NCBI GenBank assembly: GCA_016204605.1
Contig: JACQKK010000156.1
Span: 1-52,461, forward strand
From: Candidatus Lambdaproteobacteria bacterium
GTDB taxonomy: Bacteria; SAR324; JACQKK01
DNA length: 52,461 nt
Direction: 5' to 3'
Shown piece by piece: positions 21,046 to 40,305 of the stretch; the stretch's first letter is position 1, and the number at the start of each line of letters is the position of its first letter. The position numbers and the translations under genes were made by a program. The notes below the pieces were generated by a model that saw only the letters and a list, made by a program, of their open reading frames with translations, ran no database searches and was not told the origin of the DNA.

Positions 21046-22269
21046 ATGCCGGTGGGTATTGCAGCGGCCCTACGTTGGTATGAGACGCCGGGCACGGCCG
21101 GCCGGCGCGGCGCCCGCGGCCTCGCTGCCCGTGCGAGCATAGTCCGGCGCAGCCCCGGCGCACAATGGCAGCCGCCCCGCTGGCTGCTCGCGTCGGTCGC
21201 GCTCTGCCTGCTGGCGCGGCTCGCCGGGGCGGAGGAACGCCCCTACCCCACGCTGGTGGTGCTGGGGCAGGGGTGGAATCTCGGCTCGAGCGAAGGGCTG
21301 CCGACGCCGGTCGCGGTGGTGGATCACCGCAGCGGGGATGCCGCCGCCGGCGGTGCGTTGCACGCCTCGCTGCGCACCTCGGTGCTGCGGGTCGGGCTGG
21401 CCCGGGCGCTGGGCGCCGACCTGGAGTGGGAGCCGGCCGCGCGCGCCGAGGCCGTCACCCAGGGCAACGGCAACGACCTCTACCGCGACGGCACCCACGC
21501 CGGCGCCGAGACCTTCGCCGGCCACGGCCTCGCCGCGCTCGTCGCCGCGCGGCTCCACCCCAAGGGACCCTGGGGGCTGGAGGTCGAGGGCGAGCGGATG
21601 GCCACCCGCTACGAGCCGACCGAGGCGACCCGCCCCGGCTACCGCCTGCCGCCCGACTTCAGCCAGGACGAGGCACGCTTCGGCGTGCTGCGGCGGGGGC
21701 TGGGCGGCGAGCCCGAGGCGGAGCTGGCGTTGCGCGTGACGCTGGGGCAGCGCCACGGCTGGCGCGGCTGGGCGCTCGATCCGCAGGGCGAGGACAGCAG
21801 CCGCTACCGCAAGCAGGAGCTGACCCTGCGCCAGCCGTGGCGCTGGAGCGAAACCTCGCGCAGCGCCATTTCCGGCGACCTGCTCTGGGGCGCCCGGCTG
21901 GACCTGTTCAGCGGGTACCGCGTGGGTGGGATCGGCGGCGAGCGCAGCGTGGCGGGCTTCTTCAGGAACGAGTTCCGGGCGCGGGAGGCGCTGGTGGTCA
22001 ACGCCGAGCACGAGTGGACGCTCGCGAGCGACCGCCGCCTCACCCTGTATGCGGAGGGCGCCCAGTTGCGGGAGCTGGCGATCACGCTGCCCGGCGCCGG
22101 CGGCGCCCGCCGTACCATCGGCAGCGCGGGGCTCGGCTACCGGCACGGCATCCGCGCCCTGGGCGGCGCTCCCGTCATCGTGCGCTACGCCGAGGGGTTC
22201 GGGGTGCCCGGCGGCTCGAAGGAGCCCTACCGGCGGGAGCTGATGGTGCTGATGGCGGCGGGCTTCTGA
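21046..22269 (+). CDS. Probable outer-membrane beta-barrel protein, unassigned
   Basis: I do not recognise the family. From about residue 45 there is a signal-like segment (PPRWLLASVALCLLARLAGA) followed by a mature part of alternating polar/hydrophobic strands with many Trp, Arg and Gly residues (LHASLRTSVLRVGLARALG, GWRGWALDPQGEDSSRYR, GYRVGGIGGERSVAGFFRNE, GSAGLGYRHGIRAL) and a final hydrophobic/aromatic residue (AAGF), all consistent with an outer-membrane barrel. 407 residues from ATG 21046; GTG 21052 is an alternative. Both leave an unusually long N-terminus before the signal segment, so the true start is uncertain. The gene converges on the 1320-residue gene. Confidence 0.6.
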   Translation: MPVGIAAALRWYETPGTAGRRGARGLAARASIVRRSPGAQWQPPRWLLASVALCLLARLAGAEERPYPTLVVLGQGWNLGSSEGLPTPVAVVDHRSGDAAAGGALHASLRTSVLRVGLARALGADLEWEPAARAEAVTQGNGNDLYRDGTHAGAETFAGHGLAALVAARLHPKGPWGLEVEGERMATRYEPTEATRPGYRLPPDFSQDEARFGVLRRGLGGEPEAELALRVTLGQRHGWRGWALDPQGEDSSRYRKQELTLRQPWRWSETSRSAISGDLLWGARLDLFSGYRVGGIGGERSVAGFFRNEFRAREALVVNAEHEWTLASDRRLTLYAEGAQLRELAITLPGAGGARRTIGSAGLGYRHGIRALGGAPVIVRYAEGFGVPGGSKEPYRRELMVLMAAGF

Positions 22270-22318: not shown

Positions 22319-25300
22319 TCAGAGCTGGCGCACGCGCCGGTGCTCTTCTTCGGGGATCTCTTCGACATCCGGCGTGTCCGAGGCGCTGCCGAGCGTCTCC
22401 TGGAGCAGGCGCGACGCGATGGCGTCGGGATTGTCGACGAGCTGGACGCCGTCGATGTTCAGCACCACGTTGTGCTTGAGGGCGCGGAAGTAATCCTCGC
22501 GCAGTTTCGGATCGGCCATGATCTCGGCTGTGGCGTACTTGCCGACATAGACCAGCACGGGACGCGGGATGCCCTGGGTCAGGCGATCCTTTTCATTCAT
22601 GAGCGCGACGGCACGCTTGAGCTCGAAGGTGCCGGGCACCATCACGTAGTCGAACGCCGCCTGATCGCCCGCGCGCACCAGGTCGCGGACGAACTGGGCG
22701 ATCGCGCCGGGTTCCATCGGCATGAAGTGCTTCATCTGGACGGTGTCCGCCGCCTCGGGGTGGTGGCGGGCGAAATTGTGCTGGAGGTGGAGCACGAGCC
22801 GCCCCGCCGCCGGATGGACGTTCTGGAGCCCGGAAGCCTCCGAGTGCTGGTGGTCGACCGCGATGTAAGCCCCGCGCCGGAACTGGCGGCTGATGAAGCG
22901 CCGGAACACGGCCCGATCCAGGTACAGCTTGCGCACGTTCGGCAGTTGCAGGTTGAGCAGCTCGTGCACGAGCGCGCGCGCCGTGCGGTAGTAGCCCAGC
23001 CGCACCTCCTCCTCGGGAATGAACACCTGCAGCAGCAGTTCCTTGCGTGCGGGCATGAACTTTTCCTGCACCCGCCGCGGCAGATCCGCGAGCTCCGCCT
23101 CGATCAGCGCATGGCGCTCCGCCAGCGCCGCGGTCGAGATCTCCAGCCGCCGCTTGCGCGTGCTCACCTTGACCAGCTCGGCACGGCTCTGTGCCAGCTC
23201 TTCGAGATCGGCGATATGGGCGCGCGCCTGCACCAGCTCCGGGGCATCGTTCAGCGTCGCCACCGTCCGCAATTTCCCGTGCACCTCCTGCAGGGCGCGC
23301 CGGACATCCTGATGGGCCTGGCGCGCGGTCTCGGGCGCTTCCGGGGCGCCTGCGGGCGGCGCGAAGGAGTCGGGCAGCACGGGCTGCCGCTTCTCCGCCA
23401 GCGCCCGCAGCACCTCCCGGTCGATCTCGAGCCCGCGCAACTGGGCCTCGTAGCGCTGCCGGCCGACGATGACCTTGGCAAATTCCTGGAGGTCCTGCAG
23501 CACCTTGCCTTCCATGCCCGCGAGCGTGCGGGCGAACTCCGCCAGCCGCCGGGCCTGGGATTCCAGCCGCGCGAGCCCGGCGCGCGGCTCCAGCGGGGAT
23601 CGCCCCGCGGCGGCCTCCTGGAAGCGGCGTACGGCGGTGGCCACCGCCTGCGCCATGGAGTGCACGGCCTTGGCGCCGCGCGCCGCGTGCACGTCGATGC
23701 GGGCGGAGAAATTCTCCAGTTCCGCGGCGAGGTCTTTCGCCTGCACCTCCACGCGCTGCATGTGACTTTCCCGTTCCGGCAGGCCGATGCGGCGCAGCGT
23801 GGCCAGCCGCTCCGGCAGCCGGCGCTCGATCTCGCGGGTGGTGGCGCGCATCTTGTCGAGCGCGGCGGTCTGCTGCCACTCGCGGTGGGTGTCGTGCAGC
23901 CGCACCAGCAGGGCCGCGTGCTCGTCGAACACGGCCGCCCGCTCGCCCAGTGCCGCTTCGGCCGCGGCCAGGTGCCGGTCCAGCTCGGCCTGGCGCGCGG
24001 CGAGCACCTGCGCGGCCAGCGCGGCCACGTCGCCGTCGCTGCGCTCGCCGAGATTCGCCTGGCCATGGGCTTCGAGCCGGGCGATCGCCTGGGTGCGCAG
24101 GAGCTGGACGGCCTTGTCCGCCTCCTCCGACTGGCGCGCCACGGTGTCCTGTTCCTGCACCAGCGCGCGGTAGCGCTTGTAGTAGTCCTCCTCCTCGGCC
24201 TTGAGCAGTCGCTGGTACTCGGGCGAATTGGCCAGATTGATCGTTTCGAGCGTGCGCCGCAGCTCCTCCACCCTTCCCACCGCCTCGCGCTCGCGCCCAT
24301 CGAGAAACGCGGCCACCTGGGCCAGGGTGGGCTCCGTCGAGCCCTGCTCCCGCGCGAGATGGTCGGCCAGCGCGAGCTGCTCTTCCAGGAACACGCTGAA
24401 GCCGTAGTCGATCCGGTCGAACAGCGCCTGCACCCCCGGCATGGTGAACAGTTCCGCGCAGGCCAGCCCGGGAAAGAAATAACGGCGATCGTTTTCCCCC
24501 TTCTCGCCGGCGGTGCCGAAGAACACGAAATCCGGGAAGCGCCCGTCCGGCAGGGGCAGGCCGTAGTTGCCCAGCTTGGCCTCGCCGAGCCAGTTGCACA
24601 TCAGCGCCGCTTGGCGGATGCCCTGGATGCGCTCGAAGAAGCTGCGCTCCCGCTCATCGACGTCGAAGCTGCGCTGGAACTCCTGGGCGATGAACCGCGT
24701 GAGCAGCTCCAGCTCCCGGTAGGCCGTGGCGAACTCCTGCCCGCTCACCGCATCGTAGTCCGGCTGCTCCGCGTCGATCCATTCCGTGACCACGTGCATC
24801 TCGTGGTTGATATCGCCCAGGCGGATGCGCTCGGAGCTCTGGAGGTCGGCCAGCTCCCGCAGGTCGCTGACAAGCCGCCGGAAATGCGCCTTGAACCGGG
24901 CCGGGGTTTCGTAATAGGTGGCCACCTGCGCCATGCCGTCGCACAGGTAGTGGAAGCTCCGGGCATCGATCAGCCGCTCCAGCCCGTAGCGCCGCAGCAG
25001 CTTGATGATCTGCCCGGCCAGCGGGCCGACCGCTGCCACGCTCAGCCGGCGCGTGTAGGTTTCGAGCTGGTGGCGCTGCTGCACGTCGCCATGGAGGATG
25101 CGCGCATAGTAGTGCTCCTGCACCGCCTGCTGCATCGGATCCATGTTGCTGGCCTTGTCGCTCGGCACGATCAAGCGGTCGATGCGCGTCCCCTGCGCCT
25201 CGGCCGGCGCGCCGTCGGCCGGCCCGGGCACGGTGGCGACGCCGGCACGCCCGCGCCGCACCGCGAGGCTCTGCACGTCTTGGAGGGAGATCTGGTCGCC

Positions 25301-26281
25301 CGAGAGCCGGTCGAGGAACGAGATCTGGCCGTCGAAGCAGTTCACGCGCATGACCTTGGCCTCGGAGAACATCACCTTCTGAACCTCCTGGCCCGGCACG
25401 CGCCGGATCAATCCGTCCAGGCTGCGCAGGGGCACCCAGCGGTACTCGAGCTTCTCCTTCTCGAAGTTGCGCGAGAGGATCTCCAGCCCGTTGCGGATCA
25501 CCCCGTGGAACTCGAGGCCCCGATCCTGGCGGAACTGCACGTCGCGGATGACCCGCAGGGGAAGATCGATCACGATCTCCTTTTCCTTGCGCCCGCCGCC
25601 CAGGTCGATCTCGCGGATTTCACCGTGGCCGAACTGGCCATGGAGGCGCCGCAGGGTATCGATGTTGAGGGGGATCGGCGGCGTGCCCTCCTTCAGCACG
25701 ACCCGGATCTGGCTGAAGAAGGGGGCGCCGAACGTGACGGCCTGCACCTCGGCCGAGCTCATCTGGGAAAGCTCGGCCGGGTCGTCGAGCTCGACCGTGC
25801 CCCGCGAATCGGGGTAGGTGAGCGCGATGACGTGGCCCCCCTCGGCCAGCAGGCGCTGGAAGCTTTCGAGCACCTTGGGCAGCGGCCCGGTCAGGAACAC
25901 GGCCGCATCGGGGTAGCGCCGGCGCAGCTCCGGCACGAGGGAGAGGAACTCGCCGAGCGCGGGGAACTCCGAATGCAGCTCCACGACCAGGGCGAACAGG
26001 TTCTCATCCGACTCGGTGATCTGCTGGATCAGCCGCGCGGCGGGGATGCTGGCCGGCCCCTCCGTGGTGGCGACCATGATGCGGCGCAGGTACGTGCGCA
26101 GCCCATCGGGGATGTGATGCACCGTCTGGACGGCCGAAGGGTTGACGACCACCACGCGCCCGACGTTCGCCTTGTCCAGCGGGGGCACGACGCCCTTCTT
26201 GAGCAGGAACTCGACCTCGCGCCGGATCGCCGCCTGTTCCGGCACCGTCAGGGTGATGAGCGAGTAGTCGATTTCCAGCAT
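22319..26281 (-). CDS. 1320-residue coiled-coil protein of unknown function
   Basis: I do not recognise this protein. ATG 26281 has GAGGA 8-12 bases upstream. The sequence divides into: (1) residues 1-170, mixed alpha/beta, with FALVVELHSEFPALGEFLSL and RYPDAAVFLTGPLPK, vaguely like a receiver fold; (2) about 170-345, beta-rich (GHGEIREIDLGGGRKEKEIV, VPLRSLDGLIRRVPG, VMRVNCFDGQISFLDRL); (3) about 380-640, helical, with HYLCDGMAQVATYYETPARF and RRYFFPGLACAELF; (4) about 660-1080, long heptad-rich coiled coil; (5) about 1090-1320, globular, with YIAVDHQHSEASGLQ and MKHFMPMEPGAIAQFV. There is no signal peptide and no transmembrane segment, so it is probably cytoplasmic. It is transcribed divergently from the chemosensory operon. 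Composition is balanced, unlike the open frame on the opposite strand. Confidence 0.85.
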   Translation of the reverse strand: MLEIDYSLITLTVPEQAAIRREVEFLLKKGVVPPLDKANVGRVVVVNPSAVQTVHHIPDGLRTYLRRIMVATTEGPASIPAARLIQQITESDENLFALVVELHSEFPALGEFLSLVPELRRRYPDAAVFLTGPLPKVLESFQRLLAEGGHVIALTYPDSRGTVELDDPAELSQMSSAEVQAVTFGAPFFSQIRVVLKEGTPPIPLNIDTLRRLHGQFGHGEIREIDLGGGRKEKEIVIDLPLRVIRDVQFRQDRGLEFHGVIRNGLEILSRNFEKEKLEYRWVPLRSLDGLIRRVPGQEVQKVMFSEAKVMRVNCFDGQISFLDRLSGDQISLQDVQSLAVRRGRAGVATVPGPADGAPAEAQGTRIDRLIVPSDKASNMDPMQQAVQEHYYARILHGDVQQRHQLETYTRRLSVAAVGPLAGQIIKLLRRYGLERLIDARSFHYLCDGMAQVATYYETPARFKAHFRRLVSDLRELADLQSSERIRLGDINHEMHVVTEWIDAEQPDYDAVSGQEFATAYRELELLTRFIAQEFQRSFDVDERERSFFERIQGIRQAALMCNWLGEAKLGNYGLPLPDGRFPDFVFFGTAGEKGENDRRYFFPGLACAELFTMPGVQALFDRIDYGFSVFLEEQLALADHLAREQGSTEPTLAQVAAFLDGREREAVGRVEELRRTLETINLANSPEYQRLLKAEEEDYYKRYRALVQEQDTVARQSEEADKAVQLLRTQAIARLEAHGQANLGERSDGDVAALAAQVLAARQAELDRHLAAAEAALGERAAVFDEHAALLVRLHDTHREWQQTAALDKMRATTREIERRLPERLATLRRIGLPERESHMQRVEVQAKDLAAELENFSARIDVHAARGAKAVHSMAQAVATAVRRFQEAAAGRSPLEPRAGLARLESQARRLAEFARTLAGMEGKVLQDLQEFAKVIVGRQRYEAQLRGLEIDREVLRALAEKRQPVLPDSFAPPAGAPEAPETARQAHQDVRRALQEVHGKLRTVATLNDAPELVQARAHIADLEELAQSRAELVKVSTRKRRLEISTAALAERHALIEAELADLPRRVQEKFMPARKELLLQVFIPEEEVRLGYYRTARALVHELLNLQLPNVRKLYLDRAVFRRFISRQFRRGAYIAVDHQHSEASGLQNVHPAAGRLVLHLQHNFARHHPEAADTVQMKHFMPMEPGAIAQFVRDLVRAGDQAAFDYVMVPGTFELKRAVALMNEKDRLTQGIPRPVLVYVGKYATAEIMADPKLREDYFRALKHNVVLNIDGVQLVDNPDAIASRLLQETLGSASDTPDVEEIPEEEHRRVRQL

Positions 26282-26395
26282 GACGGGTCCTCATGCAGCT
26301 CGCCGCTCGGCCGCGGCGGCAGGTGTCGGCCGGGCCGCCATGTCCCGCGTGGCCGAGCGGCCGCCAAACCTTGTCCAACATCGGGGTGAAGGCTG

Positions 26396-26430
26396 TGTCT
26401 TTCCCGCGTTCCCGACACTATAATATTTCG
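26396..26430 (+). promoter_or_regulatory. AT-rich promoter-like site between the 1320-aa gene and cheB
   Basis: A perfect TATAAT at 26419-26424 lies in an AT pocket (CACTATAATATTTCGTA) within otherwise very GC-rich sequence. The -35 position is poor (TGTCTT at 26396-26401, 17-bp spacing). The pocket could also serve the leftward gene through TATTAT on the minus strand, giving a ~130-base leader. The rest of 26282-26857 has no gene I can support; an in-frame upstream cheB extension begins at 26765. Confidence 0.4.
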
Positions 26431-26857
26431 TATGCCAGAACGATACCTTGGCACGGCGAGGCGGCGCGAGCAGAGAGCGCCAGCGGGGGTAAGGCGACCG
26501 GCGGGGCGGGCGGAGCGGGAGCATGGCGCCTGCGGCAGGCCGCGCTCCGCGCAGCCCTCGCGTTCCGGCGGGCGTGGGCGATCCTGCCCGTGCGCCACAC
26601 ACCGCAGCGTCGCAGCGCACCGTCACACCGAAGCGCCGTTTCACCTGCGCTCCCGCCCGGGCAAACCGGCGTGGGCGCAAGTGCAGGCGGTTCATCCGCC
26701 TGGCCCCTGAGGCCCGCGAGGGAACTCTGCACCCCCGGGCGGCGTTTCATCACCGCTTGACGCCATGACCCGGGCTGTCGGGTTGCCTGCCGCCGCAGTG
26801 TCGGAAGTTCGTGCCTTTCCGTTTGGAACCGGCCTCAACAGACCCGCAGGGATTCGC

Positions 26858-27958
26858 ATGCCCTCGCCCCTGAGAATCTTGGTCGTGGACGACAGTGCGC
26901 TCTACCGGCGGATTCTCGCCAAGGCTGTCGACGCGCTGGGCGAGGGCCATCAGGTGGAAACGGCCCCCTCGGGCGCGATCGCGCTGCGCAAGATCCCGGC
27001 GTTCGCCCCGGACCTGGTGCTGCTCGATATCGAAATGCCGGAGATGAGCGGCATCGAGACGCTGCGGGCCATTCGCAAGAACCATCCCGCGCAGACGGTG
27101 GTGCTCGTCAGCGGCACCAACTCGCGCAGCGCGGATGTCACCATCGAGGGGCTCTCCCTCGGCGCGGCCGATTTCATCGCGAAGCCCGTCGGCGCCAGCC
27201 CCGAGCAGAACATCGCCGACCTCATGCAGCGGTTCAGGGAGGTGTTCCGCCTGCGCGCGGGCCGGGCGGCGGCGCCCGCGGGCAGGCTGGCGGCGGCGCA
27301 TGCCGTGGCGCCCGCCTCCGTCGTGGCCCCGCCGGCGCGTAGGGCCACGCTGCGCCCGCCGCGCATCGAGCTGGTGCTGATCGGCGTTTCGACGGGCGGC
27401 CCGGGCGCGTTGCAGAAGGTGATCCCCGCGCTGCCCGGCTCGCTGCGGGCGCCGATCCTGATCGTGCAGCACATGCCGCCCTTGTTCACGGCCTCCCTGG
27501 CGAAATCCCTCGACGCGCACGGCCAGTTGCGGGTGCGCGAGGCCGCCGACGGCCAGCCGGTCGAGCGCGGCAACGTCTACATCGCCCCCGGCGGGCGGCA
27601 CATGGTGGTGGCGCGCCAGGCCGCGGCGCTGGGCACTGCGCTGCTGATCCGCCTCGACGATGGCCCGCCCGTCAACAGTTGCCGCCCCGCCGCCGACCGG
27701 CTGTTCCAATCGGCGGCGCAGGCGGTCGGCAGGCCGCTGCTGGCCGTGGTCATGACGGGGATGGGGCAGGACGGCCTGGCGGGCGTCACGGCCGTCAAGG
27801 AGCAGGGCGGATACTGTCTCACGCAGAGCGAGGCCACCTGCGTCGTGTACGGCATGCCGATGGCCATCGATCTTGCCGGGCTTTCCGACGAGAGCATCGC
27901 CTTGGACGAGCTGGCGGGCCGGATCCACTCCCTCGTGAACGGAGCCCTCCCGGCATGA
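26858..27958 (+). CDS. cheB: Chemotaxis methylesterase/deamidase CheB
   Basis: Response-regulator methylesterase that removes methyl groups from receptor glutamates and deamidates glutamines. The 366-residue protein has an N-terminal receiver (VVDDSALYRRI, phospho-acceptor D57 in LLDIEMPEMSG), a linker of Ala/Arg-rich sequence (about residues 130-165), and a C-terminal esterase domain with the catalytic triad S178 (GVSTGGP), H205 (QHMPPLF) and D305 (MGQDG). ATG 26858 starts directly at the receiver; an upstream frame to 26765 adds 31 unlikely residues. It is the first gene of the chemosensory operon and overlaps cheR by 4 bp. Confidence 0.96.
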   Translation: MPSPLRILVVDDSALYRRILAKAVDALGEGHQVETAPSGAIALRKIPAFAPDLVLLDIEMPEMSGIETLRAIRKNHPAQTVVLVSGTNSRSADVTIEGLSLGAADFIAKPVGASPEQNIADLMQRFREVFRLRAGRAAAPAGRLAAAHAVAPASVVAPPARRATLRPPRIELVLIGVSTGGPGALQKVIPALPGSLRAPILIVQHMPPLFTASLAKSLDAHGQLRVREAADGQPVERGNVYIAPGGRHMVVARQAAALGTALLIRLDDGPPVNSCRPAADRLFQSAAQAVGRPLLAVVMTGMGQDGLAGVTAVKEQGGYCLTQSEATCVVYGMPMAIDLAGLSDESIALDELAGRIHSLVNGALPA

Positions 27959-29346: not shown

Positions 29347-29762
29347 AGCTGCTGATCGTGGATGACGAGGTGAAGCTGCTGAAGGCGCTGGCGCTTCACT
29401 TCGAGCTCGACGGATTCGAGGTGACGACCACGCCGGACCCGTTCGAAGCGCTGCGGCTCATGCAGGAAGGGCTGTACAGCCTGGTGATCACCGACATCCG
29501 GATGCCGGCCATGTCGGGCGTGGATCTGCTGAAGGAGCTGCGCCGGATCAATCCCCTGGCCAACATCTTCATCATCACCGGCTATTCCAACATGAGTTAC
29601 GTGGTGGAGTGCCTGGCCAGCGGCGCCTGCGATTATTTCGCGAAGCCGCTGTCGGACCTGGATGCGTTCATCCGCAGCGTCGGCGACGCGAAGCGACGCA
29701 TCGAACGTTGGCACGCGGCAATGAATCCGGGAGCGGGCCATGGCGCCGTCATTCTCCAGTAG
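29343..29762 (+). CDS. Single-domain response regulator in chemosensory operon
   Basis: 139-residue stand-alone receiver: LLIVDDEVKLLKALALHFEL, phospho-acceptor D51 in VITDIRMPAMSG, Thr in FIITGYSN and Lys in YFAKPLSD, followed by a short helix (RRIERWHAAM). These IRMP/ITGYSN features are closer to NtrC/sensor-kinase receivers than to CheY. It overlaps the chimeric remnant by 4 bp and cheA by 23 bp, so it is embedded in the operon. It may be a phosphate sink or alternative output of the hybrid CheA; this is inference. Confidence 0.92.
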   Translation: MKLLIVDDEVKLLKALALHFELDGFEVTTTPDPFEALRLMQEGLYSLVITDIRMPAMSGVDLLKELRRINPLANIFIITGYSNMSYVVECLASGACDYFAKPLSDLDAFIRSVGDAKRRIERWHAAMNPGAGHGAVILQ

Positions 29763-32700
29763 CGGCCTGCTCGACACGCTGAGCGCCGAGGTCTCGCTGC
29801 TGCGCGAAGGCGACCTCGGGCGGCTGGGCCGGCTCATCACGGCCGTCGATGCCGTGCGCGGCCAGCCCGAGGCCCCGCCGCTCGATGCCGTGCGGCGCCT
29901 GCTGGCGCAGCTCGCCCTCAGCGAGGGTGCGGCGTTCGAGACCCTGCGCGGCCTGCTCGCCGAGGCCGTGGCGGCGCTCCCGCCGTCGCCCGCCCCGGGC
30001 GACGCCTCCGGCCCTGCGCCGCAGCCGGAGCCGGCCCCCGCGCCGCAACCGCTGGAGAGCGGCGGCAGCGGCGGCGCGGGCGCCCGAGGCCCGCATGCGC
30101 AGCCCGCCACCGCGGGCGGGGCGGTGGACCGGGAGCTGTTCCTCGAATTCGTCGAGGAGTCATTGAGCCACCTCCAGTCGATCGAGCTCAACATCCTCAA
30201 GCTCGAGACGGAGCCGGGGAACCGCGCGATCGTGGACGAGATCTTCCGGCCGTTCCACACCATCAAGGGCGTCGCGGGGTTCCTGGGACTCCAGTTGATC
30301 CACGTGGTGTGCCACGAGATGGAGAACCTGCTCGATCAGGCGCGGCATGGCAAGCTCCGCATCAGCGGCGCCATCTCCGATCTCGTGCTGGAAACGGTGG
30401 ATTTCCTGAAGTCGATGATTCCCATGTGCCGCAGTGCGGCAGAGCCCACGGCCGCGCTGCTGCCCTTCAAGGGACGCGTGCAGGCCATGGTGGAGCGGAT
30501 CGTCCAGGCAAACCGGCAGGGGCTGGCAGCGCCCGCCGGCTCCGACCCGGAGCCTGCGGCGGGGAGCCCCCCCGCGGCAGACCGCCCGCTCGGTGAAATC
30601 CTGGTCGGGAACCGGGCCGCCACGCCCGAGCAGGTGCACCAGGCGGTGGCTGCCCAGCGCGACCAGGCACGGCCGCTGGGCGAAATCCTGATCGCCGAGC
30701 AGCACGTGCCCGTGGTCGAGGTGGCCCATGCGCTGCGCCAGCAGCAGACGTCCCGCGCGCCCCATCCGCAGGCGGCGCCCGCGGCCGCGCCCTCTGCCGG
30801 CCCGGCTGCGCTGGCGGCCGAGGGGGGAGCCGCAGGCTCGACGGAAAACGTGCGCGTGCGGATCGCGCTGCTGGATCAGCTGATGACGCTGGCGGGCGAG
30901 CTGGTGCTCGGCCGCAATCAACTGCTGCAGAAGCTCGCCGGCGTGGTCGATGGCGTGCAGGGGCTCAACTCCATCCTGCAGCACGTGGACCGCGTGACGA
31001 GCGAGCTGCAGGAAGCCGTGATGCAGACGCGCATGCAGCCGCTGGGCGGCCTGTTCTCGCGCTTCCACCGCGTGGTGCGCGATCTGGCGCGGCAGCTCGG
31101 CAAGGATATCGACCTGTCCATCGGCGGCGAGGGGGTCGAGCTCGACAAGACGCTGATCGAGGCGCTCACGGACCCGCTGACCCACCTGATCCGCAACTGC
31201 GCGGATCACGGCATCGAAAACCCGGCCACCCGGGCCGCGCTCGGTAAGCCGGCGGCCGGCACCATCTTCCTGCACGCGTACCACGAGGGCGGCAAGGTGC
31301 ACGTCAAGGTGGGCGACGACGGCGCCGGCGTGGACCTCGAGCGGGTGCGGGAAAAGGCCATCGAGGCCAATCTCGTCGCGCGGGACAAGGCGCAGACCTT
31401 GAGCGAGCGCGAAACCCTGCGGCTGCTGTTCACGCCGGGGTTTTCCACGGCCCGCCAGGTAACGGGGGTGTCGGGGCGCGGCGTGGGGATGGATGTGGTG
31501 CTGTCCAACATCGAGCGCATCGGCGGCTCCGTGGAGATCACCACCCGACCCGGGCAGGGTACGACGTTCCTGCTGGTGCTGCCGCTCACGCTGGCGATCG
31601 TGCCGGCGCTGGTGGTGAGCGCGGGCGCCCAACGCTTCGCCATCCCCCAGGCCAATCTGCTGGAGCTGGTGCACCTCGATGGCGAGGATGCGAGCGGCGC
31701 TGTGCTGCAGGTGCGCGGCTCGGAGGTGTTCGACCTGCGCGGGGAGATGCTGCCCCTGCTGCGGCTGAGCCGCACCTTCCGGTTGGGAGAGCCGCCCGGC
31801 GGCAGCGGAGACGGCCAACCGCACGCCGACGAGTCCCTCTCCATCGCCGTGCTGACCTCGGGCACCAAGCGCTTCGGCCTGATCGTGGATCAGGTGTTCG
31901 ACACGGAGGAGATCGTCGTCAAGCCGCTCAGCACGCTGCTCAAGAACGTCGGAGTCTATGCCGGCGCCACGCTGATGGGCGATGGCCGGGTGGCGTTGAT
32001 CCTCGACATGGCGGGCCTGGCCCGCCACGCCGAGCTCGCGCTGGACGACGAGGCGGCGCACGCCCTCGCGGCCAAGGCGGCCCCTGTCGACGCGGTGGAA
32101 AAGCAGACGCTGCTGCTGTTCAACGTCCACCCGAGCCAGCAGTTGGCGGTGCCGCTGTCGCTGATCTCGCGGCTGGATACGATCAGGACCAGCGAGATTC
32201 GCCCCACGGTCTCGGGCAAGGTGCTGCCCTACCGTGGCCAGTTGCTGCCGCTGGTGTGCCCGGAAGACCACCTGTCCCTCGTGCCGCCGCCCCAGGAGCG
32301 GGAGCGGGCGCATGTGCTCGTGTTCGAGATCGGCCGGCGCACGGTGGGGCTGGTCGTCACGGAGATCGCGGATGCCATCGAGACGGCGGTGCAGCTCGAC
32401 GATGCGGCGGTGGCCCAGAAAGGCTTCAGCGGCATGGCGATGGTGGCCGACCGCCCCACGGCCTTCCTCGATATCTACGCCGTGATCGAGACCGCGTATC
32501 CGCACTGGTTCGCCCGGGAGCAGGAGCAGCGCAGCCGGGCCATCGGCGCGCAGCCGGCGACGATCCTGCTCGTCGAGGATTCGGCGTTCTACCGCACGCT
32601 CGAGAAGAACTACCTCGTCGAGGCGGGCTTCCAGGTGGTCGAGGCCGCCGACGGCGAGGAGGCGCTCGACGTGCTGGCCCAGCGCCCGGTAAACATCGTC

Positions 32701-32931
32701 GTCACGGATATCGAGATGCCGCGGCTCAACGGCTTCGACCTCGCGGCCCGCATCCGGGAAAACAAGCCGTACGGCCACCTGCCGATCGTCGCCGTCACGT
32801 CGCTCTCCAAGGATCAGGAACGCGAGCGCGGGCTGAAGGCGGGCATCGACGCCTACCTGATCAAGCTCGATCGGGAACAACTGCTGGCGGAGATCCGCCG
32901 GCTGTTGGCGAACAAGCCCGCGGCCGCGTAG
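29740..32931 (+). CDS. cheA: Hybrid chemotaxis histidine kinase CheA with C-terminal receiver
   Basis: 1063-residue CheA. Order: N-terminal helical region (1-85), Pro/Ala linker, HPt domain with phospho-site H173 (HTIKG), a linker holding two repeats RPLGEILVGNRAATPEQV and RPLGEILIAEQHVPVVEV (about residues 285-335), P3 dimerisation (VRIALLDQLMTLAGELVLGR), HATPase domain (LIRNCADHGIE, VGDDGAGVD, GRGVGMDVV), CheW-like P5 (about 615-760), a second CheW-like domain (about 785-925; LLLFNVHPSQQLAVPL, VLPYRGQLLPLV), and a receiver with D990 (VVTDIEMPRLNG). Two CheW-like domains plus receiver is more elaborate than E. coli CheA (654 residues). The GEIL repeats resemble type II secretion ATPase N-terminal modules. 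Start ATG 29740 overlaps the regulator gene by 23 bp. Confidence 0.95.
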   Translation: MAPSFSSSGLLDTLSAEVSLLREGDLGRLGRLITAVDAVRGQPEAPPLDAVRRLLAQLALSEGAAFETLRGLLAEAVAALPPSPAPGDASGPAPQPEPAPAPQPLESGGSGGAGARGPHAQPATAGGAVDRELFLEFVEESLSHLQSIELNILKLETEPGNRAIVDEIFRPFHTIKGVAGFLGLQLIHVVCHEMENLLDQARHGKLRISGAISDLVLETVDFLKSMIPMCRSAAEPTAALLPFKGRVQAMVERIVQANRQGLAAPAGSDPEPAAGSPPAADRPLGEILVGNRAATPEQVHQAVAAQRDQARPLGEILIAEQHVPVVEVAHALRQQQTSRAPHPQAAPAAAPSAGPAALAAEGGAAGSTENVRVRIALLDQLMTLAGELVLGRNQLLQKLAGVVDGVQGLNSILQHVDRVTSELQEAVMQTRMQPLGGLFSRFHRVVRDLARQLGKDIDLSIGGEGVELDKTLIEALTDPLTHLIRNCADHGIENPATRAALGKPAAGTIFLHAYHEGGKVHVKVGDDGAGVDLERVREKAIEANLVARDKAQTLSERETLRLLFTPGFSTARQVTGVSGRGVGMDVVLSNIERIGGSVEITTRPGQGTTFLLVLPLTLAIVPALVVSAGAQRFAIPQANLLELVHLDGEDASGAVLQVRGSEVFDLRGEMLPLLRLSRTFRLGEPPGGSGDGQPHADESLSIAVLTSGTKRFGLIVDQVFDTEEIVVKPLSTLLKNVGVYAGATLMGDGRVALILDMAGLARHAELALDDEAAHALAAKAAPVDAVEKQTLLLFNVHPSQQLAVPLSLISRLDTIRTSEIRPTVSGKVLPYRGQLLPLVCPEDHLSLVPPPQERERAHVLVFEIGRRTVGLVVTEIADAIETAVQLDDAAVAQKGFSGMAMVADRPTAFLDIYAVIETAYPHWFAREQEQRSRAIGAQPATILLVEDSAFYRTLEKNYLVEAGFQVVEAADGEEALDVLAQRPVNIVVTDIEMPRLNGFDLAARIRENKPYGHLPIVAVTSLSKDQERERGLKAGIDAYLIKLDREQLLAEIRRLLANKPAAA

Positions 32932-37050: not shown

Positions 37051-38655
37051 ATGCGCGATTTCCAGTTTCCGGGCCGCTCCGTGGTGATGGGCACGCGGGG
37101 CATGATCGCCAGCAGCCAGCCCATGGCCGCGCAGGTGGGGCTCGACGTGCTCCAGCACGGCGGCAACGCCCTCGATGCGGCGGTGGCCGCGATGGCCACC
37201 CACTGCGTGGTCGAGCCGGGCTCGACCGGGCTCGGCGGAGACTGCTTCATCCTCTACCACGAGGCGAAGACGGGCCGGCTCCACGGGCTCAACGGCAGCG
37301 GCCGGGCGCCGGCCCGGGCCACGGTGGAGGAGTATCGCCGGCGCGGCCATCGCACCGGCCACGACAGCAAGGCGCCCGAGCGCGGCGCGCTCTCGGTGAC
37401 GGTGCCGGGCGCCGTGGATGCCTGGGAGACGGCGCTCACCCAGTACGGCACGAAGGGGCTGGACGACCTGCTCCAGCCCGCCATCCGCTTCGCCGAGGAG
37501 GGCTATGCCGTCTCCCCCGTCATCGCGCGGGGCTGGGCCGGCGCTGCGGAGCTGCTGGCCGCCCACCCCGATTCGCGCCGCGCGCTGACGCTCGACGGCA
37601 AGGCGCCGGCGGCGGGCACCATCCACCGCCAGCCGGAGCTGGGACGCTCCCTGCGGCGGATCGCCAGGGAGGGCAAGGCGGCCTTCTACCAGGGCGCCAT
37701 CGCCCAGGAGATCGCCCGGTTCATGGAGCAGGAGCAGGGGTTGATCACGCTGGACGACCTGGCCGCCCACCGCTCGGAGTGGGTGGCGCCGGTCGAGACC
37801 ACCTACCGCGGCATCCGCCTGTGCGAGCTGCCGCCCAACGCCCAGGGCATCGTGGCCCTGATGACGCTCAACATCCTCGAACGCTCCGGCATCGAGCGCA
37901 TGGCGCGGCTCGGCGCCGATCACGTGCACACCTTCGCCGAAGCCTTCAAGCTGGCCCTGGCCGAGCGCGACCGCTGGGTCGCCGACGCCGCGTTCCATCC
38001 CGCGCCGCTGGAGACGCTTCTCGACAAGGGCTACGCGGAGCGGCAGCGGGCGCGGATCGACCCGACCCGGGCGCTGTCCCACCCGGTCGCCTCGGGGCTC
38101 ACGCTGGGCAGCAACACCGTCTACCTCTCCGTCGTCGATCGCGACCGCAACTGCTGCTCCTTCATCAACAGCCTGGGGATGGGCTTCGGCAGCGGGCTGG
38201 TGGCCGGCAATACCGGCATCACGCTCCAGAACCGCGGCTACGCGTTCGTGCTGGAGGAGGGCCACCCGAACGTGATCGCGCCCCACAAGCGCCCCATGCA
38301 CACGCTGGTGCCGGCGATGGCGTATCGCGGCGACAGGCCGATCCTCTGCTTCGGGGTGATGGGCCGCCACTACCAGCCGCTGGGCCATGCCTACGTCGTC
38401 AGCAACTGGCTCGATTTCGGGCTGGACATCCAGGAGGCCGTGGACGCGCCGCGCTTCATGGCGCTGCACGGCAAGCTCGATCTGGAGCGCGGCATCCCCC
38501 CGGCCACCCGCGAGGCGCTGGCCCGCCGCGGCCATGCGGTGGCCGAAGCCAGGTCGCCGCCGGGCGGCGCCCAGGTGATCCTGATCGACCACGAGCAGGG
38601 CGTGCTGCAGGGCGCCTCCGACCCCCGCAAGGACGGCTGCGCCCTGGGCTATTGA
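37051..38655 (+). CDS. Gamma-glutamyltransferase family protein, copy 1
   Basis: 534-residue Ntn-hydrolase of the gamma-glutamyltransferase family, which cleave gamma-glutamyl amides such as glutathione and mature by self-cleavage. The predicted nucleophile is T356 in SNTVYLSVVDRDRN, which lines up with E. coli GGT T391 (TTHYSVVD). Other marks: GGNALDAAVAAMATHCVVEP, GLGGDCFILYHE, LNGSGRAP, and GFGSGLVAGNTGITLQNRG. There is no signal peptide, whereas E. coli GGT is periplasmic, so this enzyme is probably cytoplasmic and may act on another amide. ATG 37051 is preceded by CAGCGAGATCAGGGTC. Confidence 0.9.
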   Translation: MRDFQFPGRSVVMGTRGMIASSQPMAAQVGLDVLQHGGNALDAAVAAMATHCVVEPGSTGLGGDCFILYHEAKTGRLHGLNGSGRAPARATVEEYRRRGHRTGHDSKAPERGALSVTVPGAVDAWETALTQYGTKGLDDLLQPAIRFAEEGYAVSPVIARGWAGAAELLAAHPDSRRALTLDGKAPAAGTIHRQPELGRSLRRIAREGKAAFYQGAIAQEIARFMEQEQGLITLDDLAAHRSEWVAPVETTYRGIRLCELPPNAQGIVALMTLNILERSGIERMARLGADHVHTFAEAFKLALAERDRWVADAAFHPAPLETLLDKGYAERQRARIDPTRALSHPVASGLTLGSNTVYLSVVDRDRNCCSFINSLGMGFGSGLVAGNTGITLQNRGYAFVLEEGHPNVIAPHKRPMHTLVPAMAYRGDRPILCFGVMGRHYQPLGHAYVVSNWLDFGLDIQEAVDAPRFMALHGKLDLERGIPPATREALARRGHAVAEARSPPGGAQVILIDHEQGVLQGASDPRKDGCALGY

Positions 38656-38715: not shown

Positions 38716-40305
38716 ATGCGCGACAACCAGTTCCCCGGCCGCTCGGTGGTGATGAGCGCCAACGGCATGGTGGCCACCAGCCAGCCCATGGCCACCCAGG
38801 TGGGGCTGGCCGTGCTCAAGCGCGGCGGGAACGCCATGGATGCGGCCATCGCGGCCGGCGCCACGCTCTGCGTGACCGAGCCCCAATCCACCGGCATCGG
38901 CGGCGACTGCTTCATCCTCTACCACGAGGCCAGGACCGGGAAGCTGCATGGGCTCAACGGCAGCGGCCGGGCGCCGCGCCGGGCCACGCCGGAGGAGTTC
39001 CGCAGGCGCGGCCACCGGGAGATGCCGCAGCGCGGCATTCTCGCAGTCACGGTGCCTGGGGCGATCGACGCCTGGGAAACCGCGCTGGGGCGCTTCGGCA
39101 CGTACGGGCTGGCGGAGGCGCTCCAGCCGGCCATCCGCTTCGCCGAGGGCGGATTCGCCGTCTCGCCGATCGTGGCCAGCTTCTGGAAGAAGAACGAGGC
39201 CATGCTCGCCGCCCATCCCGATGCGCGCCGGGCGCTGCTGGTCGAGGGGAAGGCGCCCGCGGCGGGCACCATCCAGCGCCAGCCGGAGCTGGCCCGCTCC
39301 ATGCGCCTGATCGCCGCCCAAGGCAAGGCCGCGTTCTACCAGGGCGCCATCGCCCAGGAGATCGCCCGCTTCATGGGCCAGGAGGAGGGGCTGCTCGGAC
39401 TCGACGACCTGGCGGCGCACCGCTCGGACTGGGTGGAGCCGATCCACACGGACTACCGCGGCATCCGGCTCTGCGAGATTCCCCCCAACGGGCAGGGCAT
39501 CACGGCGCTGATGTGCCTCAACATCCTGGCGCAGACGCCGCTCGCCCGGCTGAAGCACCTGAGCCCGGACTACCTGCACACCTTCACGGAGGCCTTCAAG
39601 CTGGCCCTGGCCGAGCGCGACGTCTGGGTCTCCGACACAGGGCTCGGCAAGGTGCCGGTCGAGGCGCTGCTCTCGAAGCGCTTCGCCGAGCGGCAGTGGC
39701 GGCGGATCGACCCCGCCCGCGCGCTGCGCCATCCGCTGCCGACCGGCCTCAGCGGCGGCGGAGACACGGTCTACCTCTCCGTCGTCGATCGCGATCGCAA
39801 CTGCTGCTCGTACATCAACAGCACCTACAACAACTTCGGCAGCGGCATGGTGGCGGGCGGCACGGGCATCACGCTCCAGAACCGGGGTTACGGCTTCGTG
39901 CTGGAAGAGGGACATTTGAACTGCATCGCGCCGGGCAAGCGCCCCATGCATACGATCATCCCCGCGATGGCCTACCGCGGCACCCAGCCCATCCTGTGCT
40001 TCGGCGTGATGGGCGCCCACTACCAGGCCATGGGCCACAGCTACGTGCTCAGCAACTGGCTCGATTTCGGGATGGACGTGCAGGAGGCGGTGGACGCCCC
40101 GCGCTTCCTGCCCCTGGCCGGGAAGCTCGAGGTGGAGCGGGGCATCCCCCGCGCCGCCCGGGAGGCACTGGCTGCCCGCGGCCACGACATCGTAGAGCTG
40201 GACACGCCCCACGGCGGCGGGCAGGTGATCTACATCGACAGCGAGGCCGGCGTGCTCCAGGCCGCCTCCGATCCCCGCAAGGACGGCTGCGCCATCGGGT
40301 ATTGA
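38716..40305 (+). CDS. Gamma-glutamyltransferase family protein, copy 2
   Basis: 529 residues, tandem paralogue of copy 1, 60 bp downstream. Predicted nucleophile T351 in GGDTVYLSVVDRDRN. The proteins agree block by block (GGDCFILYHEA, LNGSGRAP, FYQGAIAQEIARFM, GITLQNRG, FCFGVMG-like CFGVMGAHYQAMGHSYVLSN, SDPRKDGCA) and both end GY. Copy 2 has STYNNFGSGMVAGG where copy 1 has SLGMGFGSGLVAGN, next to the active site, so substrate range may differ. No signal peptide. Likely co-transcribed with copy 1. The 66 bp to trmJ contain a short hairpin repeat (40317-40357). Confidence 0.9.
   Translation: MRDNQFPGRSVVMSANGMVATSQPMATQVGLAVLKRGGNAMDAAIAAGATLCVTEPQSTGIGGDCFILYHEARTGKLHGLNGSGRAPRRATPEEFRRRGHREMPQRGILAVTVPGAIDAWETALGRFGTYGLAEALQPAIRFAEGGFAVSPIVASFWKKNEAMLAAHPDARRALLVEGKAPAAGTIQRQPELARSMRLIAAQGKAAFYQGAIAQEIARFMGQEEGLLGLDDLAAHRSDWVEPIHTDYRGIRLCEIPPNGQGITALMCLNILAQTPLARLKHLSPDYLHTFTEAFKLALAERDVWVSDTGLGKVPVEALLSKRFAERQWRRIDPARALRHPLPTGLSGGGDTVYLSVVDRDRNCCSYINSTYNNFGSGMVAGGTGITLQNRGYGFVLEEGHLNCIAPGKRPMHTIIPAMAYRGTQPILCFGVMGAHYQAMGHSYVLSNWLDFGMDVQEAVDAPRFLPLAGKLEVERGIPRAAREALAARGHDIVELDTPHGGGQVIYIDSEAGVLQAASDPRKDGCAIGY

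Follow-up and report, generated by a model that had tools for sequence, protein, structure and literature searches.

What does a very large protein of no recognisable family do beside a chemosensory operon? The question is raised by a 52,461-nucleotide contig (JACQKK010000156.1, assembly GCA_016204605.1; hereafter, the window) from a Candidatus Lambdaproteobacteria bacterium of the phylum SAR324. A first-pass annotation, made from the sequence alone, had noted a 1320-residue coiled-coil protein encoded divergently from cheB, and had suggested that it might be a positioning or scaffold factor tied to the chemosensory genes. We refer to this gene as BIG1 and to its family as BIG. We observed that BIG is an undescribed, phylum-restricted family, and that a dedicated chemosensory role for BIG1 is not supported as its general function.

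The BIG1 gene is real. The open reading frame (ORF) lies at 22319-26281 on the minus strand, with its ATG at 26281, and its position, strand and length were exactly as first annotated. The codon-position GC contents (0.75/0.41/0.92) followed the pattern that real genes show in this window, which is 70% GC. The complete relatives from the window's own family of genomes share the start MLxIDYxLIPL at the same point as BIG1. A longer antisense ORF (22340-26389, plus strand, 1349 aa) was rejected as a gene: it had no family match, all relatives keep the minus frame, and it is a high-GC shadow.

We evaluated the distribution of BIG in 52 SAR324 genomes belonging to four families: f1 (the window's family, n = 10), f2 (n = 31), f3 (n = 10) and f4 (n = 1). 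BIG was present in 10/10 f1 and 10/10 f3 genomes, incomplete ones included, and was found in none of the 31 f2 genomes, the single f4 genome or about 330 other genomes. Most f1 genomes carried two paralogues, BIG1 and BIG2. The length of the proteins stayed within about 1320-1390 aa, though f1 and f3 members were only about 15% identical. In line with the first-pass annotation, which could name no family, we found no family match in Pfam, NCBIfam, PHROGs, PADLOC, plasmids, viral contigs or PDB sequences; the profile matches in the PDB were mostly to coiled-coil and helical-bundle proteins and fell over the long helical rod of BIG1 (described below). A viral fold library gave no convincing match. 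When 383 genomes were searched with a profile of the full alignment, the f1 and f3 members were recovered together with three weak non-SAR324 matches confined to the rod, and a profile of the C-terminal domain detected no domain-only relatives outside f1 and f3 in these genomes. A pattern scan of named genomes with the f1 alignment yielded 12 relatives, all at SAR324 loci; scans of named genomes with the single protein, or with a pattern from the full alignment, yielded no relatives. SAR324 is an uncultured phylum, and BIG, a large core protein for which no relative turned up elsewhere, marks cell biology specific to it.

The tree separated BIG1, BIG2 and the f3 copies, with a very long f3 branch and an uncertain root. 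This agrees with BIG1 and BIG2 having arisen by duplication in the f1 line. BIG occurs in f3 as well as in f1 and is lacking in f2; as f1 and f2 belong to the same order, this distribution suggests that it was lost in f2. No diverged counterpart was seen at the syntenic proA or ligA loci of the f2 genomes examined, and a 1298-aa ORF at an f2 syntenic locus was rejected as one, being a UvrD/RecB-type helicase. BIG2 followed proA in all seven genomes having it, usually with a glycosyltransferase gene next. In G006 and G008, BIG2 was missing and proA was followed directly by the glycosyltransferase gene (L111 2763-5371; L112 8247-10803), where relatives have proA-BIG2-glycosyltransferase. The f2 genomes without the family, and these two genomes that lack one paralogue and have closed up the flanking genes, provide natural contrasts. 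We also considered flagellar specificity as the cause of the f2 gap and rejected it, because FlhA was nearly universal (51/52 SAR324 genomes, including genomes in which cheA genes were few or undetected) and f2 was not distinguished by it; flagellar export is thus nearly universal in SAR324. Near proA, G012 (f2; L104 8687-11509) and G042 (f3; L119 3416-6214) each encode a protein of about 935 aa that gave weak matches of the adenylate-cyclase N-terminal type.

The structure was predicted with AlphaFold2 in two overlapping parts, residues 1-650 and 560-1320, using 25 relatives, with a mean pLDDT of 84.7 and 85.2, respectively. The models upheld in outline the five regions recognised earlier: an N-terminal alpha/beta domain, a beta-rich region, a helical globular domain, a long-helix rod and a C-terminal (beta-alpha)5 domain (Table 1). 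The beta-rich region had no sequence match in the profile search and is followed by a low-confidence linker (residues ~346-362). Fully invariant residues numbered 13, mainly Gly, Pro, Phe, Asn, Arg, Lys and Gln, with no obvious catalytic set; they include N47 in the N-terminal domain, G419, P604 and F628 in the helical domain, and R1128, Q1133, G1137, N1154, P1216, K1231, A1267 and N1271 in the C-terminal domain. Mean conservation was 0.32-0.34 in the rod versus 0.36-0.50 at the ends, and residues 721-1020 of the rod were the least conserved part of the protein. No conserved P-loop was found across 25 family members, the one match being spurious. The protein has no membrane segment, as first annotated (the highest Kyte-Doolittle mean over 19 residues was 1.2). 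The coiled coil proposed earlier, put at about 400 residues, stood only in part. There are indeed about 420 residues of long helices (687-1109), but these are interrupted by breaks, and heptad periodicity was strong only in places, with a 3.6-residue amphipathic periodicity elsewhere. Part of the rod may therefore be a helical bundle instead of a coiled coil.

Table 1. Coordinates in the window of BIG1, its predicted regions and the adjoining intergenic region.
Feature	Position	Strand	Basis
BIG1 gene, 1320-residue protein, stop codon included	22319..26281	-	ORF, coding composition, near-constant-length relatives in 20 SAR324 genomes
Shine-Dalgarno-like GAGGA, 6 nt 5' of BIG1 ATG	26288..26292	-	Direct sequence reading
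N-terminal alpha/beta domain, residues ~30-175; five strands with helices between them, helix 1 poorly formed	25757..26194	-	AlphaFold2
Beta-rich region, residues ~180-345, about ten strands	25247..25744	-	AlphaFold2
Mainly helical globular domain, residues ~380-646	24344..25144	-	AlphaFold2; invariant residues from alignment
Long-helix rod, residues ~650-1109, helices of up to 83 residues	22955..24334	-	AlphaFold2; only coil-type PDB matches
C-terminal (beta-alpha)5 domain, residues ~1120-1300, one of the most conserved regions	22382..22924	-	AlphaFold2, Foldseek, alignment
Acidic C-terminal tail, variable, not conserved	22322..22381	-	Sequence, alignment
Divergent intergenic region BIG1-cheB, 576 bp	26282..26857		Sequence read

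The explanation that we tentatively prefer, and which we consider quite possible, is that BIG1 serves as a scaffold or spacer in the cytoplasm, has no enzymatic activity and is peculiar to the f1 and f3 lineages. A long helical rod, probably oligomeric, would hold folded end modules apart, and the conserved ends would bind partners. We favour this because of the near-constant length, the conserved ends as against a poorly conserved rod, the lack of a P-loop, and the lack of any enzyme match in the family searches. Scaffolding, oligomerisation and partner binding are what we infer, on a domain layout that is itself predicted. Some points weigh against this explanation. The fold class of the end domains includes ligand- and cofactor-binding domains (such as B12-binding ones), and the role may be enzymatic or sensory. 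Long AlphaFold helices can be over-predicted, the coiled-coil periodicity of BIG1 is only local, and pTM values of 0.62 (residues 1-650) and 0.49 (560-1320) make the domain arrangement unreliable. The scaffold suggestion of the first-pass annotation thus survives as a cytoplasmic, long-helical protein of no known family that is probably structural rather than enzymatic, but not in its chemosensory part.

An unlikely alternative, though the best placed of those we weighed, is that the ends are degenerate receivers, and that BIG1 is a scaffold of pseudo-receivers and coiled coil which recruits motility or polarity factors to a cell site. FrzS and AglZ of Myxococcus xanthus combine a pseudo-receiver with a coiled coil (PMC1974792, PMC12632262), and the receiver of FrzS cannot be phosphorylated (PMC1974792). 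With Foldseek, receivers were among the best matches of the N-terminal model (RcsB receiver, probability 0.99, E 0.013) and were also listed for the C-terminal model (Rcp1, probability 0.92, E 0.21), but the target TM-scores were only 0.41 and 0.48, and neither half had a match at E 0.001. The predicted strand-helix order is that of a receiver at both ends, complete (beta-alpha)5 in the C-terminal domain and without a clear first helix in the N-terminal one; this is a loose fold similarity.

We further compared both ends, in the f1 and combined alignments, with a profile of 28 receivers from SAR324 genomes using hhalign. The BIG ends scored 16-19.5, while CheB, a true receiver, scored 186 and unrelated alpha/beta proteins from the same loci scored up to 24.5. 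Column-shuffled versions reached 16-19.5 rarely (0-7 of 150). Since unrelated alpha/beta proteins outscored the BIG ends and a true receiver reached 186, the resemblance is fold-level at best, and receiver homology was rejected as unproven. There was no match to the receiver family PF00072 in 25 BIG members. The active-site set of receivers (acidic pair, phosphoryl Asp, Thr/Ser and Lys) is not conserved: in the N-terminal domain, strand 1 ends in the invariant N47 followed by P, S, G or A, and strand 3 ends in E (f1) or N (f3), the correspondence to receiver sites being by strand order only.

BIG resembles FrzS and AglZ in being cytoplasmic, with a folded alpha/beta N-terminal domain that lacks the phosphoryl aspartate and a long helical region. 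It differs in that two further domains, a beta region and a helical one, separate this end from the rod and another alpha/beta domain forms the C-terminal end, and the likeness in the receiver part is one of fold only. The roadblock family PF03259, which includes MglB, was matched in 0/52 SAR324 genomes versus 3/14 control genomes (MglA itself was not searched), and an AglZ/FrzS-Mgl polarity module was rejected on this ground. By analogy, BIG may work like FrzS and AglZ, but it cannot be filed with them.

It is a shade less probable still that BIG1 positions or scaffolds the adjoining chemosensory array, as the first-pass annotation suggested might be the case. On the upstream side of BIG1 the window carries cheB, cheR, a receiver protein gene, a hybrid cheA, cheW, a NIT-HAMP-MCP receptor gene, DUF420 and two gamma-glutamyltranspeptidase (GGT) genes. 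We observed that cheB adjoins BIG1 in 4/8 informative f1 genomes, namely the window, G005, G002 and G003, which represent four genera. The arrangement in G005 was that of the window as far as DUF420, and in G002 it was the same to the contig end, while in G003 only cheB-cheR stood beside BIG1, without cheA (L028 5708-7643, minus strand). A separate cheA cluster of G003 lies on the opposite side of BIG1, about 14 kb away. The four che-bearing copies fell into one branch of the tree (support 0.955), which also holds the copy of G007, a locus truncated on the upstream side. In the other four genomes BIG1 has no che genes alongside: GGT stood directly beside it in G001 and G004, DUF420 and then GGT in G006, and GGT in G008. 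As these flanks are common to the f1 copies, the che cassette is an element that is present or absent between them. The che genes were probably inserted beside BIG1 in one f1 branch, or lost from the others; a single insertion would account for the che-bearing copies sharing one branch, and losses are also possible.

Beyond BIG1 the adjacency was not seen. BIG2 and the f3 copies are not near che genes, and we found no partner gene common to the BIG1, BIG2 and f3 neighbourhoods. The f3 copies followed an AI-2E-type transporter gene in 8/9 informative genomes and faced a pentapeptide-repeat gene; in some genomes the f3 copy and the transporter gene overlap by 4 nt (L041-L049). The phyletic profiles of cheA and cheB did not track that of BIG1. 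CheA (PF02895) and CheB (PF01339) domains were abundant in many f2 genomes, with up to 12 CheA-type and 18 CheB-type matches, all without BIG, while neither was detectable in the BIG-bearing G001 (91% complete) and G007 (73%). The whole locus is slow to rearrange, and adjacency alone is weak evidence. Neither conserved linkage nor co-occurrence with cheA was thus found; a neighbourhood varying among relatives, named beforehand as the outcome that would speak against the link, is largely what we observed, with cheB in four of the eight genomes and DUF420 or GGT in the other four. The adjacency of che genes misleads when near relatives go unexamined.

About equally unlikely is an enzyme or a ligand-gated regulator whose ends bind a B12-, flavodoxin- or nucleotide-like cofactor or ligand. 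The C-terminal model gave mostly long-helix matches with Foldseek, but its top target TM-score was to a B12-binding (flavodoxin-like) subunit (4r3u_C; TM 0.54, probability 0.97), with an overall E-value of 0.24 and no sequence match to BIG. The invariant residues K1231, N1271 and N47 are located close to the ends of strands or in the helices next to them. However, there was no conserved set of acidic, histidine or cysteine residues, and no cofactor motif was found in the family searches.

We would give similarly little weight to a broader proposal, in which BIG would be a cytoskeleton-like or spacer protein invented in SAR324, ancestral to the phylum, duplicated in f1 and lost in f2. It would give order to the inside of the cell, and in one branch of f1 its receiver-like ends would have linked it to a chemosensory array.

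A chromosome organiser like SMC, MukB or Rad50 is highly improbable: BIG1 does share with these a size of 1300-1500 residues and long helices, and MukB, Smc5/6 and Rad50 coils appeared in the Foldseek list for the rod (E 0.005-0.03), but these matches are to long helices only, there is no SMC Pfam match or conserved P-loop, and the missing ATPase head domains largely refute it. That BIG1 belongs to a mobile element or a defence system, or derives from a phage, is just as improbable. Such systems do commonly encode large proteins that have no known homologues, but this reading is contradicted by the core-gene distribution of BIG, which is universal in two families and stably placed beside housekeeping genes, with no match in PHROGs, PADLOC or plasmid searches and no relative in the pattern scan of viral contigs.

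The gap of 576 bp between BIG1 and cheB was confirmed, the cheB start fitting position 26858. The perfect TATAAT reported in this control region is present (26419-26424, plus strand) and is the sole copy in the window, where about 0.4 are expected by chance. We found no -35 partner for it, and it sits 434 bp before cheB, pointing away from BIG1.

Some other genes of the window may be mentioned. Between rnr and BIG1 lies a likely outer-membrane beta-barrel gene (21160-22269, plus strand) with a hydrophobic leader, strand-like repeats and a C-terminal Phe; it had no Pfam match and is nested inside a longer 933-aa ORF. The hybrid CheA (29740-32931, plus strand) has Hpt, H-kinase_dim, HATPase, CheW and C-terminal receiver domains. 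The two GGT genes (37051-38655 and 38716-40305, plus strand) are in tandem and are 71% identical.

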